The position numbers and the translations under genes were made by a program. From Psychrobacter immobilis (lineage in GTDB: Bacteria; Pseudomonadota; Gammaproteobacteria; Pseudomonadales; Moraxellaceae), in assembly GCF_904846225.1 (NCBI RefSeq), contig NZ_CAJGZJ010000001.1, forward strand, positions 248,001 to 312,000: 64,000 nt of DNA. The letters run 5' to 3'. This document shows positions 33,497-51,213 of the stretch, piece by piece. Under the pieces are notes generated by a model, which was not told the DNA's origin, made no database searches, and was given only the letters and a program-made list of their open reading frames with translations. The number at the start of each line of letters is the position of its first letter. The first letter of the stretch is position 1.

Positions 33497-33508
33497 ATGG
33501 TGCCTGCT

Positions 33509-34720
33509 ATGACTCTTTCTAAATTTTTAAAAAACAGCACCTATTTGCTAAGTGCTTTGCTACTTGTTGCCTGTCAGCCATCCCCGCCTACCGATGAGCC
33601 CATAGAGGCTGAAAACAGCGCAGCCGCAGAGACGCCACTTATCATTACTAATGATAGTGTAACCATGGCACCTGATCATATATTGAGCATAAAGCCTTCA
33701 CGTTATCAGCCAAGCCTTGGCTTGCAGGGTAGTATCGAACCTGTTAAAAAAACTGAGCTCATTTCAGCACATCCTATTACTGTCGAAAAAATACTGGTCA
33801 GTGAGGGTCAATGGGTAGAAAAAGGGATGCCTTTACTCATTGTTCGACGTTTGGATACAGAAGACAGCGTATCTCCACAATCAGGAAGTTCTACCCAAGA
33901 GAGTGAGTTGACGGTTGATGCCAAACAGAAAGATCAACCAGACACCAGCCCAAACTCCGCTCAATCCACATCGGATAGCAAAGAGCTATCAAAAGCAAAG
34001 CCATCTGTAGAAAATGCTAACGTCGATCCTAGCAGTAATGTGGCAACTAACAGTAATGTGGCAACTAGTACCGATAGCGCAGCAGACTCAAAACCACTAT
34101 ATAACTTGGCGACAGTGCGGGCCAGTTTTTCAGGGCGAGTAGAAAATATAGAAGTAGCAGCAGGACAAAAGCTAGCGGCTCAGACGCGGTTATTACATCT
34201 TAGCGATGAGTCTAAACTGTACTTTATCGCCACGCTGCCTATTCAAGCGAAACCTCAGCTTTCGATTGGCCAAACGGTTAATTTTACGGCTCAAGGTATA
34301 TCAGACAACTTTACGGGTCAGGTCAGTAAACTCACCGTAACCCGTCAGCCTAAAAAACTCTTAGTCTATGTAGAGGTGATTGACAATAAGGTAAATCGCG
34401 GCAAATTATTGTCAGATACGAAGGTGACGGGACGCGTCAACTACGGTCAAATAGATGTGGGTACTATTGTGCCCGAGCGCGCGCTCCATGATGTTGACTT
34501 AACAGAATTAAGAATGCCACCATATAAGCCGCTCAGACCTTTGACCGCCAATGTATGGATTATTGGGCAAGATCAGCGTTTGAAAGAGCGACCGATTGAG
34601 GTAGTTGAATACAATCCAACGACGCAGCAATATTTAATTGCGGGTATCAGTAATGATACCTTGATTTGTTTGGCTGATTTACCTGTTGATTCTAAAGGCA
34701 AAAAAGTTATTGTTTCATAG
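33509..34720 (+). CDS. RND/HlyD-type periplasmic adaptor lipoprotein, orphan
   Basis: This lipoprotein of about 403 residues has lipobox LLVAC near residue 20. Two lipoyl half-motifs, VEKILVSEGQWVEKGMPLL and FSGRVENIEVAAGQKLAAQTRLL, are typical of efflux adaptors. They should be joined by a coiled-coil hairpin, but here about 80 low-complexity Ser/Asn/Asp/Thr residues (about 115-197) take its place. Beta-barrel and membrane-proximal domains follow. No transporter or outer-membrane channel gene lies next to it. The two-component system 290 bp downstream may regulate it. I chose ATG 33509 (GGTG upstream); ATG 33497 is also possible. Confidence 0.8.
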   Translation: MTLSKFLKNSTYLLSALLLVACQPSPPTDEPIEAENSAAAETPLIITNDSVTMAPDHILSIKPSRYQPSLGLQGSIEPVKKTELISAHPITVEKILVSEGQWVEKGMPLLIVRRLDTEDSVSPQSGSSTQESELTVDAKQKDQPDTSPNSAQSTSDSKELSKAKPSVENANVDPSSNVATNSNVATSTDSAADSKPLYNLATVRASFSGRVENIEVAAGQKLAAQTRLLHLSDESKLYFIATLPIQAKPQLSIGQTVNFTAQGISDNFTGQVSKLTVTRQPKKLLVYVEVIDNKVNRGKLLSDTKVTGRVNYGQIDVGTIVPERALHDVDLTELRMPPYKPLRPLTANVWIIGQDQRLKERPIEVVEYNPTTQQYLIAGISNDTLICLADLPVDSKGKKVIVS

Positions 34721-35011: not shown

Positions 35012-35734
35012 ATGAGCAAGCAAATTCTATTGATTGAAGATGATCCAGATTTAGCTGAGTTAATCAGCGACTACCTGACGATGAATTATTATGATGTACA
35101 TCATGCAGGACTTGGTCAGGAAGGGCTTGACTTATTGGACACCAAAGAGCGTGATATTGATTTGGTCGTGCTTGATTTGATGCTGCCTGACATGGACGGT
35201 ATGCAAGTATGTCAAAAAATTCGCGGCAACAAAAATAACATGACCAATAAAGTGCCGATCATCATGCTAACCGCGAAAGGCGACACAACGGATCGCGTAT
35301 TGGGTCTTGAGATGGGTGCTGATGACTATATCTCTAAACCTTTTGAGCCACGTGAGCTTCTCGCTCGCATCCGTGCGGTTATTCGTCGACACGAGCAACC
35401 CAATCAAGCGGACAGCCAATCAGACAGCTTGACTTTCGGTCGTTTGAGCGTATTCCCTGATAGCCATGAAGTGACTATCGATGATGAAGCAGTACGTTTG
35501 ACGACGCATCAGTTTCAACTATTGCATTATTTTGCCACTCATTCTGGTAAAGTACTGAACCGCGAGCAACTTTGGCAAGCCATGCCAAACGACGACAGCT
35601 CCGACAACATCGATCGCGCGATTGACGTTCATATTTCACGTTTACGTGCTTTGATCGAAGACAATCCACGCCAGCCAAAACGTATTATTACCGTGCGCGG
35701 CGTTGGCTATCAATTTGCAACCGATCAGGTATAA
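35012..35734 (+). CDS. OmpR-family response regulator
   Basis: This 240-residue regulator has an N-terminal receiver (IEDDPDLAE; phospho-Asp in LVVLDLMLPDMDG near residue 54; MLTAKGDTTD; ISKPFEPREL). The C-terminal winged-helix DNA-binding domain runs from about 140 (LTTHQFQLLHYFATHSGKVLNREQLW ... RAIDVHISRLRALIEDNP ... RGVGYQF). An AAAGGA ribosome site lies before the ATG. It forms a pair with the histidine kinase 24 bp downstream. It resembles the RstA/CpxR-like branch, but I cannot name its target. Confidence 0.92.
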   Translation: MSKQILLIEDDPDLAELISDYLTMNYYDVHHAGLGQEGLDLLDTKERDIDLVVLDLMLPDMDGMQVCQKIRGNKNNMTNKVPIIMLTAKGDTTDRVLGLEMGADDYISKPFEPRELLARIRAVIRRHEQPNQADSQSDSLTFGRLSVFPDSHEVTIDDEAVRLTTHQFQLLHYFATHSGKVLNREQLWQAMPNDDSSDNIDRAIDVHISRLRALIEDNPRQPKRIITVRGVGYQFATDQV

Positions 35735-35758: not shown

Positions 35759-37918
35759 ATGCAGCAGTTAGGATTTCGTTCCGTCTTTGCCAAGCTATTT
35801 GCCAGCGTCATGCTGGCACTTATCTTATTTGCCGTCGCTATGGTACTACTGACGCAACTTGTGCATGATAAAGATGCGGGTATTCGCTCAGAAGTATTAG
35901 CCACACAGATTTTGGGTCAAATAGACCCATTTTTGCATGAGCTTAATATCTCTATTAGTAAAGACAGTCGTTTACAGTCACGCTTTATGCTAGCAGTGGT
36001 CAAGAAAAGTTTTGATATCTTTGATGAATCATTACAGGCAAAAATGGGATTATATGACAGCGAAGGTCATTTACTCATGCAAACTGACAATAGTGACTTA
36101 CCCTTAGTACTACCAGCACCTCCTTCTCTATTTTCACGCGTTTTTCCTTCATTTGCAGACACCTCCCCTACCAAGCAAGCCCAAGTATATAGTAGCACTG
36201 GCTACACACTCTTGTATGAGTCGCGCTTGCCTCCCAAAAAACCTGTACTCTCTGCCGCACTCAATTTATTTACAGGTACGCTACTACTCCTACTTATTAT
36301 GGCGGGTGTACTGTGGTGGATTGCTCGTACCATTACTTGGCGTATCAATCAGATGAGCCAGCAAATGACGCAATTGGGTGATGGCGACTTTACGGTACGC
36401 GTGAATGCTCATGGTAATGATGAGATTGCCTCATTAGCCCGTGGCTTTAACCAAGCAGCACAAAAAATCGAACACCTGATTGATGCCAATAATTTATTAC
36501 TGGCACATGCGTCTCATGAGCTACGCACGCCCATCACTCGTATTCGCTTACAGATTGAGATGATGGATATGCTAACTGGCGCTCTGCCATCTGATACCAA
36601 AGCAAAATTTGATAAACGCGCGCACGCCATTAATCGCGACTTATCAGGGCTCAATGATTTGGTAGAGAGCATCTTATTGGTCAGCCGTCTAGATGCGGGT
36701 CATGCTTTACAGCAAATTGAGAGCTTAGACTTGTATGATCTAGTCAATCAAGAACGTCAACATTATCCTGAAGCCACATTGATTGGTGAGCACCTCGTGA
36801 TTGATGGGCAGTCAGCGATGCTGACCCATTTAATTCGTAACTTATTGACCAATGCTATGCTGCACGGTAAACCCCCAGTGACCGTATTGTTGTATGGCGT
36901 TCAGACTGTTGAGGAAGCAGATGCCGTACCTGACTATCTGTTACAAACGGTGCTCTGTAGCAGCTTTATTGATTATAATAGTTCTGATTTTGAGTCTTAT
37001 GATGAGCTGATTGATGTCAACGAAGAAACAATGCAGAGCACCTCAAATCTAAACGATTCATCCATCACTACTGATAAGGTTAAATCTGAAACAGTTGATA
37101 CGATGGTCATATTGCCAGCCCCCGATATCTATCAAAACGGCGAAAATATTACTGTCGATAGCGATGCCAATCCCGATACAAATATAGATACTGATGTCGA
37201 TAGCATTGAAACCAGTGTGCCTGCGACAGAATCTACCGCTCAAATCAATTTAGGCACTGTGACAAGCTCAACAAACAGTAGCGACATACCTAAAACCACT
37301 ACTGACTCATCATTGCTTGCTAACTATTATAGCTTTACCAATGATTTGACTGACAGAATTAAAAAGGTCATTTGGAAGGCCGTCCCTGAGTCTAAATCGG
37401 TTTCTGAAGCCATTGACCCTAATAAGGTCGCTGCTAACAGCAAGGCGACTGATAGCAAGGCGAATGCGACTTCCAAAGATGTAGAAAAGAGTAGCAGTAT
37501 CGATAACGAGACGCACACTGCTGATAAAGCAGATGTTGGTTCAACTGTCATCAAAAAGGATAGTAAAAACGGTGTTCAAAATGACAGTGAGACGACTGGT
37601 ACACCGCGCAAAGAAAGCTTATTTTCCAAACATCTAAAAAAATCCAAAGCCGAACCCGTACGCCCACTGCCAAAATATGCAGTGTTAGCAGTGATCGATG
37701 AAGGCACAGGAATTCCTGAAGACAAACGCGAAGAAGTCTTTAGCCCATTTGTACGTTTGCAGCAAAAGAACAAAGGCTCTGGTTTGGGTTTATCTTTGGT
37801 TTCACAAATTGTCACCGCTCATCAAGGCCGCATCAGCACCGATACTATAAATGGTCATACTAGATTTTTAGTCGTTATACCCATCAAACACGACCCTCAT
37901 TATAATCAGTACGATTAA
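35759..37918 (+). CDS. HAMP sensor histidine kinase with a large insert in the ATPase domain
   Basis: This is a 719-residue sensor kinase. Two membrane helices (about residues 12-35 and 173-192) bracket a periplasmic domain. HAMP follows (MSQQMTQLGDGDFTVRVN), then the H-box LLAHASHELRTPITRIR with His near 252. The N-box is LIRNLLTNAMLHGKPP near 360. The G1 box (VIDEGTGIPEDKREEVFSPF) appears only near 645 and the G2 box (GSGLGLSLVSQI) near 680. Between N and G1 there are about 250 residues of Ser/Thr/Asn/Asp/Lys-rich sequence (about 385-635); normally this distance is about 30. It is translated directly after the response regulator, presumably its partner. Confidence 0.9.
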   Translation: MQQLGFRSVFAKLFASVMLALILFAVAMVLLTQLVHDKDAGIRSEVLATQILGQIDPFLHELNISISKDSRLQSRFMLAVVKKSFDIFDESLQAKMGLYDSEGHLLMQTDNSDLPLVLPAPPSLFSRVFPSFADTSPTKQAQVYSSTGYTLLYESRLPPKKPVLSAALNLFTGTLLLLLIMAGVLWWIARTITWRINQMSQQMTQLGDGDFTVRVNAHGNDEIASLARGFNQAAQKIEHLIDANNLLLAHASHELRTPITRIRLQIEMMDMLTGALPSDTKAKFDKRAHAINRDLSGLNDLVESILLVSRLDAGHALQQIESLDLYDLVNQERQHYPEATLIGEHLVIDGQSAMLTHLIRNLLTNAMLHGKPPVTVLLYGVQTVEEADAVPDYLLQTVLCSSFIDYNSSDFESYDELIDVNEETMQSTSNLNDSSITTDKVKSETVDTMVILPAPDIYQNGENITVDSDANPDTNIDTDVDSIETSVPATESTAQINLGTVTSSTNSSDIPKTTTDSSLLANYYSFTNDLTDRIKKVIWKAVPESKSVSEAIDPNKVAANSKATDSKANATSKDVEKSSSIDNETHTADKADVGSTVIKKDSKNGVQNDSETTGTPRKESLFSKHLKKSKAEPVRPLPKYAVLAVIDEGTGIPEDKREEVFSPFVRLQQKNKGSGLGLSLVSQIVTAHQGRISTDTINGHTRFLVVIPIKHDPHYNQYD

Positions 37919-49797: not shown

Positions 49798-51213
49798 CTA
49801 ATTATGACCACATAACGAACCATTCTGACGCTGCCAGATTGTCTCACCAATAATACCCGCTAACTGCTCAGCAATCTCATCTTTGCTTGCTTTCTCAAGT
49901 ATCAGTGCATCACGCTCATAGCGCTCAGAGAAAAAAACCTGCATCGCATTGTCATCACTGGCAAAACCAATATCGGCGCGTGAGACATCATTACAAGCGA
50001 TCAAATCTAAGTTTTTAGACACAAGCTTACCGCGAGCATAATGCTCAACATCCTGCGTTTCTGCCGCAAAACCCACTACGAATAGCGCTGGATGGGCAAG
50101 CGAAATAGTCGCTAAAATATCAGGGTTTTTGACCAAACTGAGCGCCATCGTATCTTGTGTTTTTTTAATTTTTTGCGGAGCCGCCTGCTCGGTGCGATAA
50201 TCGGCCACAGCTGCCGTCGCAATAAAGATATCAGCGACTCTCACATTACTTTCATCGACAAAATCCTCATCGACAGAAGTCGCATGCATATGCTCTTCGC
50301 TATGTGCGTCATCGCAATCACAGCCGTCATGATGGTCGTGTTCATGTTCATGTTCATGAGAATGATCGTGCTCTTCTTCAGATAAAAACGCTAACTCGCT
50401 ATGCGTACCCGCCACACATTGCTGGGCCGCAAGCAACATCTCTTTAGCGGACAACACATCAATACGCGTGACATTAAGCGGTGTCGGTAACGCCACTTTA
50501 CCACCAGCAATTAAAACCACCTCGGCTCCAGCAGCCACACAAGCGCGTGCTAAAGCGAAGCCCATTTTGCCAGTAGAATGATTGGACAAATAGCGTACTG
50601 GATCAATGGCTTCAACCGTTGGGCCTGCGGTAATCACGACCCTTTTACCTGTCAACAACTGCGGCGTTGTTTGCATTGCAGTGAATAACAGCACTTCAGC
50701 CAATAGCTGTTCAGGCTCAGGCAGTCGACCTGCGCCCACATCGCCACACGCTTGCTCACCACTTGCAGGCTGAATAATGTAATAATTCATATCGCGCAGT
50801 GTTTGTACGTTAAGATGCACAGCCGGATGCGCCCACATTTGCTGGTTCATCGCTGGCGCAATCATGACTGGCGCCGTCGTTGCAAGACATACGGTCGTCA
50901 ACAAATCATCTGCCATACCCATTGCGAGGCGCGCGAGTGTATTGGCAGATGCTGGGGCAATGACGATTAAATCAGCCCATTTAGCCAGCTCAATATGCCC
51001 CATTCCTGCTTCTGCTTTCTCGTCAAGTAGTGAGACATGCACCTCATTACCCGTCAAGGCTTGCAGCGTTAAAGGCGTGATAAATGCCTGTGCACCTGTG
51101 GTCATAATGACACGCACATCAAAGCCCGCCTTAATCAATAAGCGGGCAAATATAGCAGATTTATAAGCGGCGATACCGCCAGTGATAGCAAGCACGATAT
51201 TTGACATAAGCAT
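49798..51213 (-). CDS. coaBC: Bifunctional CoaBC with a metal-binding-like insert
   Basis: This 471-residue fusion performs two steps of coenzyme A synthesis: phosphopantothenate-cysteine ligation (CoaB half) and decarboxylation (CoaC half). The CoaC half shows GGIAAYKSA, the substrate block APAMNQQMW and GDVGAGRLPEP. The CoaB half shows ITAGPTVEAIDPVRYLSNHSTGKMG, AAVADYR, KNPDILA and FAAETQ. Between a helix ending near residue 265 and ADIFIATAAVADYR there are about 50 extra residues. Residues 279-309 are dominated by His, Glu, Asp and Cys (EHDHSHEHEHEHDHHDGCDC). E. coli CoaBC has no such insert. An ATG at 51207 is also possible. Confidence 0.95.
   Translation of the reverse strand: MLMSNIVLAITGGIAAYKSAIFARLLIKAGFDVRVIMTTGAQAFITPLTLQALTGNEVHVSLLDEKAEAGMGHIELAKWADLIVIAPASANTLARLAMGMADDLLTTVCLATTAPVMIAPAMNQQMWAHPAVHLNVQTLRDMNYYIIQPASGEQACGDVGAGRLPEPEQLLAEVLLFTAMQTTPQLLTGKRVVITAGPTVEAIDPVRYLSNHSTGKMGFALARACVAAGAEVVLIAGGKVALPTPLNVTRIDVLSAKEMLLAAQQCVAGTHSELAFLSEEEHDHSHEHEHEHDHHDGCDCDDAHSEEHMHATSVDEDFVDESNVRVADIFIATAAVADYRTEQAAPQKIKKTQDTMALSLVKNPDILATISLAHPALFVVGFAAETQDVEHYARGKLVSKNLDLIACNDVSRADIGFASDDNAMQVFFSERYERDALILEKASKDEIAEQLAGIIGETIWQRQNGSLCGHN

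Follow-up and report, generated by a model that had tools for sequence, protein, structure and literature searches.

A sensor histidine kinase of Psychrobacter with a long insert between the N-box and the G1 box that carries four conserved islands in variable linkers

The sensor kinases of the EnvZ/OmpR and RstB/RstA pairs combine HAMP, HisKA and HATPase_c domains with an OmpR-family partner gene, and the loop between the N-box and the G1 box of EnvZ is short. The ATPase domains of histidine kinases count as compact modules; the kinases described below carry a conserved arm of 63-317 residues inside this fold. WalK of Streptococcus mutans and Staphylococcus aureus has a disordered C-terminal tail with a conserved tryptophan, part of a W-acidic motif, and this tail is needed for binding the response regulator (PMC9087282). 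In RNase E of gamma-proteobacteria, short conserved motifs lie within disordered sequence and were gained in particular clades (PMC4435900). MORC2 offers a precedent for a long insertion with a function in a GHKL ATPase module (PMC5811534): its CC1 is an 80-residue coiled coil located in the transducer-like domain.

Here, we have analysed a 719-residue sensor histidine kinase encoded in a 64,000-nucleotide stretch of Psychrobacter immobilis DNA (the window), to which coordinates refer unless another locus is named. Its gene, identified by ORF translation and Pfam, spans 35759-37918 on the + strand, as do all its parts given below. The HAMP domain (residues 187-238; 36317-36472; Pfam 51.3 bits), the HisKA dimerisation/phosphoacceptor domain (residues 244-314; 36488-36700; 43.6 bits), with His253 in the motif SHELRTP, and the HATPase_c domain all score over the Pfam cut-off, and the H-box and the N, G1, F and G2 motifs are present, as in HisKA-type membrane sensor kinases. 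The HATPase_c match begins only at profile position 36. EnvZ chains are the top sequence match among solved structures, and EnvZ and RstB lead the NCBIfam list, with 125.3 bits against the EnvZ equivalog cut-off of 415 bits and 125.4 bits against the RstB cut-off of 478 bits. We regard the protein as a kinase of known kind whose insert is a lineage-specific variant. We found no description of this insert among the open-access papers listed, some of the lists being cut short, which is weak evidence of absence.

Directly upstream lies the gene of the cognate OmpR-family response regulator (35012-35734, + strand; 240 residues; Response_reg 101.7 bits, Trans_reg_C 83 bits), which has an 89% identical counterpart in G113, a genome of the Moraxella-type genus g10. 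The same pair is found in Moraxella oblonga (locus L235), where the gene order is that of the window: a small response regulator on the opposite strand, an HlyD-like adaptor, the regulator, the kinase and then the ATPase, the permease and the binding protein of an ABC transporter. Apart from the adaptor, the regulator and the kinase, these names rest on our reading of the sequences. As a guess, the mesR system of Moraxella catarrhalis, mentioned in PMC8895709, may be the orthologous pair. The HlyD-like adaptor (33497-34720, + strand) contains a 71-residue, hydrophobic-poor segment rich in Ser, Asp and Lys. By eye, this segment seems shorter in the M. oblonga counterpart (L235, 1836-3023), and the adaptor of the window may have grown too.

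The N-box LIRNLLTNAMLHG (residues 358-370; 36830-36868) and the G1 box IDEGTGIPED (residues 646-655; 37694-37723), both read from the ORF translation and the orthologue alignment, are separated by 275 residues, as the former ends at residue 370 and the latter starts at 646. An initial annotation of this DNA had put the interval at about 280 residues, which our count bears out, and had placed the anomaly at 36910-37670, which falls inside the insert. It had taken about 30 residues as normal; loops elsewhere are indeed short, but that figure is slightly high, as the interval is 19-23 residues in 14 paralogues drawn from as many genomes of the family (L147, L148 and L150 yielded no row) and 19-39 residues in 15 kinases of G114, a genome of another genus. 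The richness in Ser, Thr, Asp, Asn and Lys that it had noted is seen in residues 381-638, which contain 14% Ser, 12% Thr, 11% Asp, 8% Lys and 7% Asn, and where hydrophobic residues (VILMFWYC) make up 24% compared with 37.5% in the remainder of the kinase. The catalytic boxes are intact, as it had stated: His253, N361/N365, D647/G649/G651, residues 661-667 and the G2 region (673-680) are invariant among 37 aligned orthologues, including the G2 box GSGLGLS itself (residues 673-679; 37775-37795). The kinase is probably active, as the annotation had also concluded. Its description of about 250 low-complexity residues is too uniform, since 99 of the 261 residues 381-641 belong to four conserved islands. 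These islands go further than the initial annotation, which offered no function.

Islands and linkers were defined on 69 of 115 distinct proteins, namely those of long-insert Psychrobacter (insert of at least 223 residues, locus number below 85). The observed clustering of conserved columns was reached by none of 2000 shuffles. Island 1 (residues 381-411; 36899-36991) has a mean conservation of 0.79 without gaps and a dN/dS of 0.093, and contains a predicted helix at 392-404. It is followed by linker 1 (residues 412-451; 36992-37111), which is variable (dN/dS 0.43 (0.434); 33 indel codons) and probably disordered, with pLDDT below 50 over most of its length. Island 2 (residues 452-462; 37112-37144; dN/dS 0.045) carries the motif LPAPxIYxNGE, predicted to form a strand pair with an NG turn. 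Linker 2 (residues 463-514; 37145-37300), acidic, variable and likewise predicted to be disordered, has a dN/dS of 0.46 and 84 indel codons. Island 3 (residues 515-543; 37301-37387; dN/dS 0.163) includes a putative amphipathic helix, FTNDLTDRIKKVIWKAVP, with the conserved Trp539, and this segment ends in KKVIWKAVP. The Ser/Asp/Lys-rich linker 3 (residues 544-613; 37388-37597; dN/dS 0.39 (0.391); 33 indel codons) is the most gapped part of the alignment, with a mean gap fraction of 0.26. Island 4 (residues 614-641; 37598-37681; dN/dS 0.088) is basic (RKESLFSKHLKKSKAEP..PLPKY) and leads into the strand before G1. No indels were observed in any of the four islands.

Islands 1 and 4 extend both strands of the hairpin; across 37 orthologues from three genera, conservation is 90% or more at P391 in island 1 and at F622 and K630 in island 4. 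Within the 69 long-insert Psychrobacter proteins, P455, N460, G461, E619, F622, K624, H625, K630 and P638 are identical in all, and position 539 is always aromatic, being Trp in 66 and otherwise Tyr or Phe. A regular-expression search recovered island 2 in 68/77 long-insert and 3/19 short-insert Psychrobacter proteins, and island 3 in 61/77 and 1/19, respectively; neither was matched in the 15 g10 or the two g7 proteins. Island 1 was matched in 8/19 short-insert Psychrobacter, 14/15 g10 and 0/2 g7 proteins and island 4 in 6/19, 8/15 and 0/2, although these two expressions miss many diverged copies. The ends of the insert are older; the hairpin motif of island 2 and the tryptophan helix occur mostly in long-insert Psychrobacter. 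The rarity of these two islands elsewhere means that the core function of the kinase in the lineage cannot need them.

The four islands are under purifying selection and free of indels, while the linkers evolve fast and vary in length. At larger distances synonymous changes approach or exceed saturation, and selection was therefore estimated on 19 disjoint pairs of close species. dN/dS was 0.025 in the ATPase fold, 0.108 in the islands and 0.427 in the linkers, and indel codons numbered none in the fold, none of 1872 in the islands and 150 of 2861 in the linkers. Because the islands had been chosen on the same alignment, they were set again from 31 sequences outside the pairs, giving 381-410, 454-462, 530-541 and 617-641. 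When these held-out islands were tested on the pairs, dN/dS was 0.075 against 0.40 for the rest, with 0 against 70 indels; this hold-out is partial, as the held-out and the pair sequences come from related species. None of 260 circular shifts gave a value as low. The two inner islands, which comprise 21 positions by the held-out definition, have a dN/dS of 0.072 without indels. The insert has the short conserved motifs, set in fast-evolving sequence of low pLDDT, that are expected of a disordered region with microdomains (short linear motifs).

We propose that the insert is a disordered, motif-bearing docking arm on the hairpin rather than junk, and would put the probability of this reading at roughly one half. 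We consider it the likeliest since the combination of fixed motifs with linkers free in length, as in RNase E, and the precedent of the WalK tail would both fit an arm that binds a partner. In this proposal, the hairpin between N-box and G1 of an EnvZ-like HAMP/HisKA/HATPase kinase would have grown into a long disordered arm in the Psychrobacter-Moraxella lineage. From the order of the motifs and from kinase structures, the hairpin loop should point away from the ATP site, which would explain why the enzyme tolerates the arm: the second hairpin strand, into which the arm leads, ends in G1, so that the base of the arm would be at the end of the strand far from the nucleotide. The islands of the arm could fold on binding and keep a partner near the catalytic domain, and the held partner could either be raised in local concentration or gate catalysis.

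A different account would be that the hairpin merely tolerates length and the lineage adds segments rich in Ser, Thr, Asp, Asn and Lys, in which case the arm would need only to be soluble and its base alone would be conserved by packing. What speaks for it most strongly is the length of the same loop in other kinases. Among the 13 measurable histidine kinases of the genome to which the window belongs, six, including the 719-residue kinase, have at least 40 residues between N-box and G1 (43, 45, 56, 65, 71 and 275), against none of the 15 measurable kinases of G114; these counts leave out rows that could not be parsed (L248, L251 and L254 in the former genome; L304, L308, L312, L316 and L320 in G114) as well as gyrase, MutL, Hsp90 and CheA-like rows excluded by eye, and take in a few rows (L244, L310 and L319) that gave no H-box match and were counted as kinases by eye. 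A longer hairpin at this point therefore seems to be a wider tendency of Psychrobacter, the 719-residue kinase being the extreme. The linkers, moreover, are under weak sequence constraint and unrestricted in length, the neighbouring adaptor has a similar segment, and internal polar segments are somewhat more numerous in a 400 kb stretch (11) than in that of a related genome (7). We nevertheless consider growth without a binding function rather unlikely. The strongest evidence against it is that islands 2 and 3, although no closer than 70 residues to either end of the insert, have the low dN/dS and the lack of indels reported above; the identity of P455, N460 and G461 in 69/69 proteins and the Trp539 of 66/69 also speak against it. 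The lineage may have a general tendency to lengthen its N-box-to-G1 hairpins, and neutral growth of the loop may supply the raw material for a docking arm.

The other kinases of the same genome (G000) with lengthened loops are at C1:93363-93848 (loop of 71 residues), C3:270804-271289 (65), C18:28037-28507 (56), C16:57171-57584 (45) and C7:54760-55143 (43). In G113, the orthologue of the 719-residue kinase has 122 residues between the boxes, and in the five further kinases whose H-box was recognised the interval is 19-32.

Structure prediction, one of the checks that the initial annotation had proposed, gave an intact ATPase fold around the insert. Two AlphaFold2 models were built, of the full length with 37 sequences and of the catalytic part with 88 sequences, and their mean pLDDT is modest (66.9 and 65.8, respectively). 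The catalytic-part model can be superposed on kinase ATPase domains of known structure; with ThkA it reaches a Z of 16.4 and an rmsd of 2.5 over 139 residues. As the fold is standard and the catalytic residues are invariant, the arm would be a tolerated addition rather than a disruption. In both models, islands 1 and 3 each form a helix and island 2 a strand pair (strands 457-459 and 462-464), with pLDDT of about 50 or below in the linkers. The island structures are suggestions, and the pLDDT of island 3 is either 60-67 or 47-58, depending on the model. In both models, the helices of the insert are single and short, with no pair of coiled-coil length. The insert thus differs from CC1 of MORC2, an antiparallel coiled coil, which moreover is neither located between the N and G1 motifs nor disordered.

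The full-length model also bears on whether the arm could fold back onto its own ATPase or dimerisation domain and thereby inhibit or pace autophosphorylation. Its pLDDT of 82-93 at residues 381-400 and 631-640 and of 74-86 at the strand-pair motif would fit such docking. On the other hand, shorter orthologues with the same catalytic residues seldom have islands 2 and 3, and we judge an intramolecular gate quite improbable.

It is also improbable, in our estimate, that the insert is a membrane tether, in which the tryptophan helix of island 3 and the basic island 4 would bind the inner membrane and restrain the catalytic domain, so that the state of the membrane could gate the kinase. A parallel is found in RNase E, where a membrane-targeting microdomain holds the enzyme at the membrane. 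The hydrophobic moment of residues 525-542 in island 3, 0.51, is the highest in the insert, and island 4 has a net charge of +6. The mean hydrophobicity of the helix is, however, about zero (-0.07), island 3 carries only +1 overall, moments of up to 0.67 occur within the first 380 residues of the kinase, and a tether of this kind leaves islands 1 and 2 unexplained.

The candidate partners of a docking arm are the response regulator, the membrane or the kinase itself, and we think that a protein is likelier than lipid. The cognate response regulator may be the single likeliest protein partner, because the disordered tail of WalK with its conserved Trp has been reported to bind the regulator. 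As in WalK, the conserved Trp539 lies in a disordered region, the flanks 470-516 and 539-620 having pLDDT below 50 in the full-length model. The likeness to WalK does not extend to the W-acidic motif: Trp539 is in the basic stretch RIKKVIWKAVP inside the ATPase domain, whereas the motif of WalK is acidic and belongs to a C-terminal tail. RNase E resembles the kinase insert in its motif-bearing disorder, but there the disordered sequence is the noncatalytic region of a nuclease and its partners are known. The basic surroundings of island 3 and its low pLDDT weigh against a docking arm. Islands 1 and 4, furthermore, may be conserved merely through packing on the fold, and long loops at the same point are common among the other kinases of the genome.

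A more specific form of the docking arm is that the insert turns the ATPase domain into a scaffold, on which islands 2 and 3, as recent Psychrobacter additions, would recruit the regulator or another protein and add specificity or feedback, with several other kinases of the same genome maybe at earlier stages. We put this forward tentatively, as possible rather than probable. If true, a new layer of a two-component system would have arisen by growth of a tolerant hairpin loop. The graded lengths of the insert and its selected motifs form a natural series for how a disordered loop gains binding motifs inside an enzyme, and this series also bears on whether kinases hold their regulators by such arms. 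The insert site, in addition, shows where loops or tags might enter the catalytic domains of kinases without loss of function.

The N-terminal part of the kinase is present in all 105 Psychrobacter genomes. Of these, 98 were read, and in 97 the insert could be delimited by the two boxes and has 127-317 residues, the exception being L098 with its broken frame; seven genomes (G042, G048, G052, G056, G058, G063 and G095) were left out of the measuring. It was also measured in 15 of 16 g10 genomes (63-121 residues) and in all four g7 genomes (about 106-126 residues), so that 116 genomes in all give a graded series of 63-317 residues; L128 gave no measurement, and L131 and L132 escaped the strict pattern and were measured with a looser one. 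The initial annotation had named insert-free orthologues together with an assembly error as what would overturn its claim, and the orthologues carry the insert. Since the insert is measured in 97 of 98 Psychrobacter genomes, assembly error or frameshift is excluded as its source, and with purifying selection at the codon level an artefact of assembly or annotation is extremely improbable, despite the N-terminal match being split in three of the 105 genomes. These split matches (G050:C49, G048:C46 and G075:C1) are in genomes with reported completeness of 86, 84 and 85%, respectively; as completeness is only 84-86%, sequencing errors seem likelier than real pseudogenes.

Other origins of the insert were considered. 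There is no tandem array that could be its source; three imperfect direct repeats of 15-22 nt, each in two copies (e.g. 37434-37463), occur in the region. No ORF of more than 79 residues overlaps it on the opposite strand. The G+C content of 0.42-0.43 is similar to that of the flanks and does not indicate horizontal gain of a known domain. No Pfam family was reported for the insert, its sequence has no credible match among solved structures (best E 0.36), and no second copy was found in the same genome, where the only other hit has an E of 0.6.

In a search of the family, 92 of 199 genomes matched the kinase at 1e-30, comprising 66 Psychrobacter, 21 g10 and five g7 genomes, and the other 107 had no match at this threshold; 20 of the 26 matching g10 and g7 genomes were fetched and six left out. 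Among the best 80 of 153 relatives in the relative search, 79 are Psychrobacter and one is Moraxella oblonga. When 13 genera of the same or other families, represented by one genome each, were searched by alignment, nothing matched at 1e-30, an empty answer that by itself shows nothing. The kinases found there instead have 27-36% identity over a HAMP-HisKA-N-box query and short loops, and are presumably BfmS-like. The g7 genome G125, unlike the five other g7 genomes, has no match at 1e-30; in this genome (L144), a short-loop kinase adjoins an ORF with a second kinase domain that has a 39-residue loop.

In a midpoint-rooted tree of 44 kinases, from which the insert was omitted and whose root is for drawing only, g7 has inserts of 122-126 residues, g10 of 63-121 and several Psychrobacter branches of 127-222. 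The largest Psychrobacter group mostly has 227-317 residues, with a few short inserts (164-181) inside or beside it. Nine short-insert Psychrobacter rows group with g10 (support 93/84), and lengthening therefore need not have been a single steady trend.

Elsewhere in the window, an ORF of 471 residues at about 49801-51213 on the - strand has an internal stretch rich in His, Asp and Glu, HDHSHEHEHEHDHHDGCDCDD, and perhaps encodes a metal-handling protein with a metal-binding loop.
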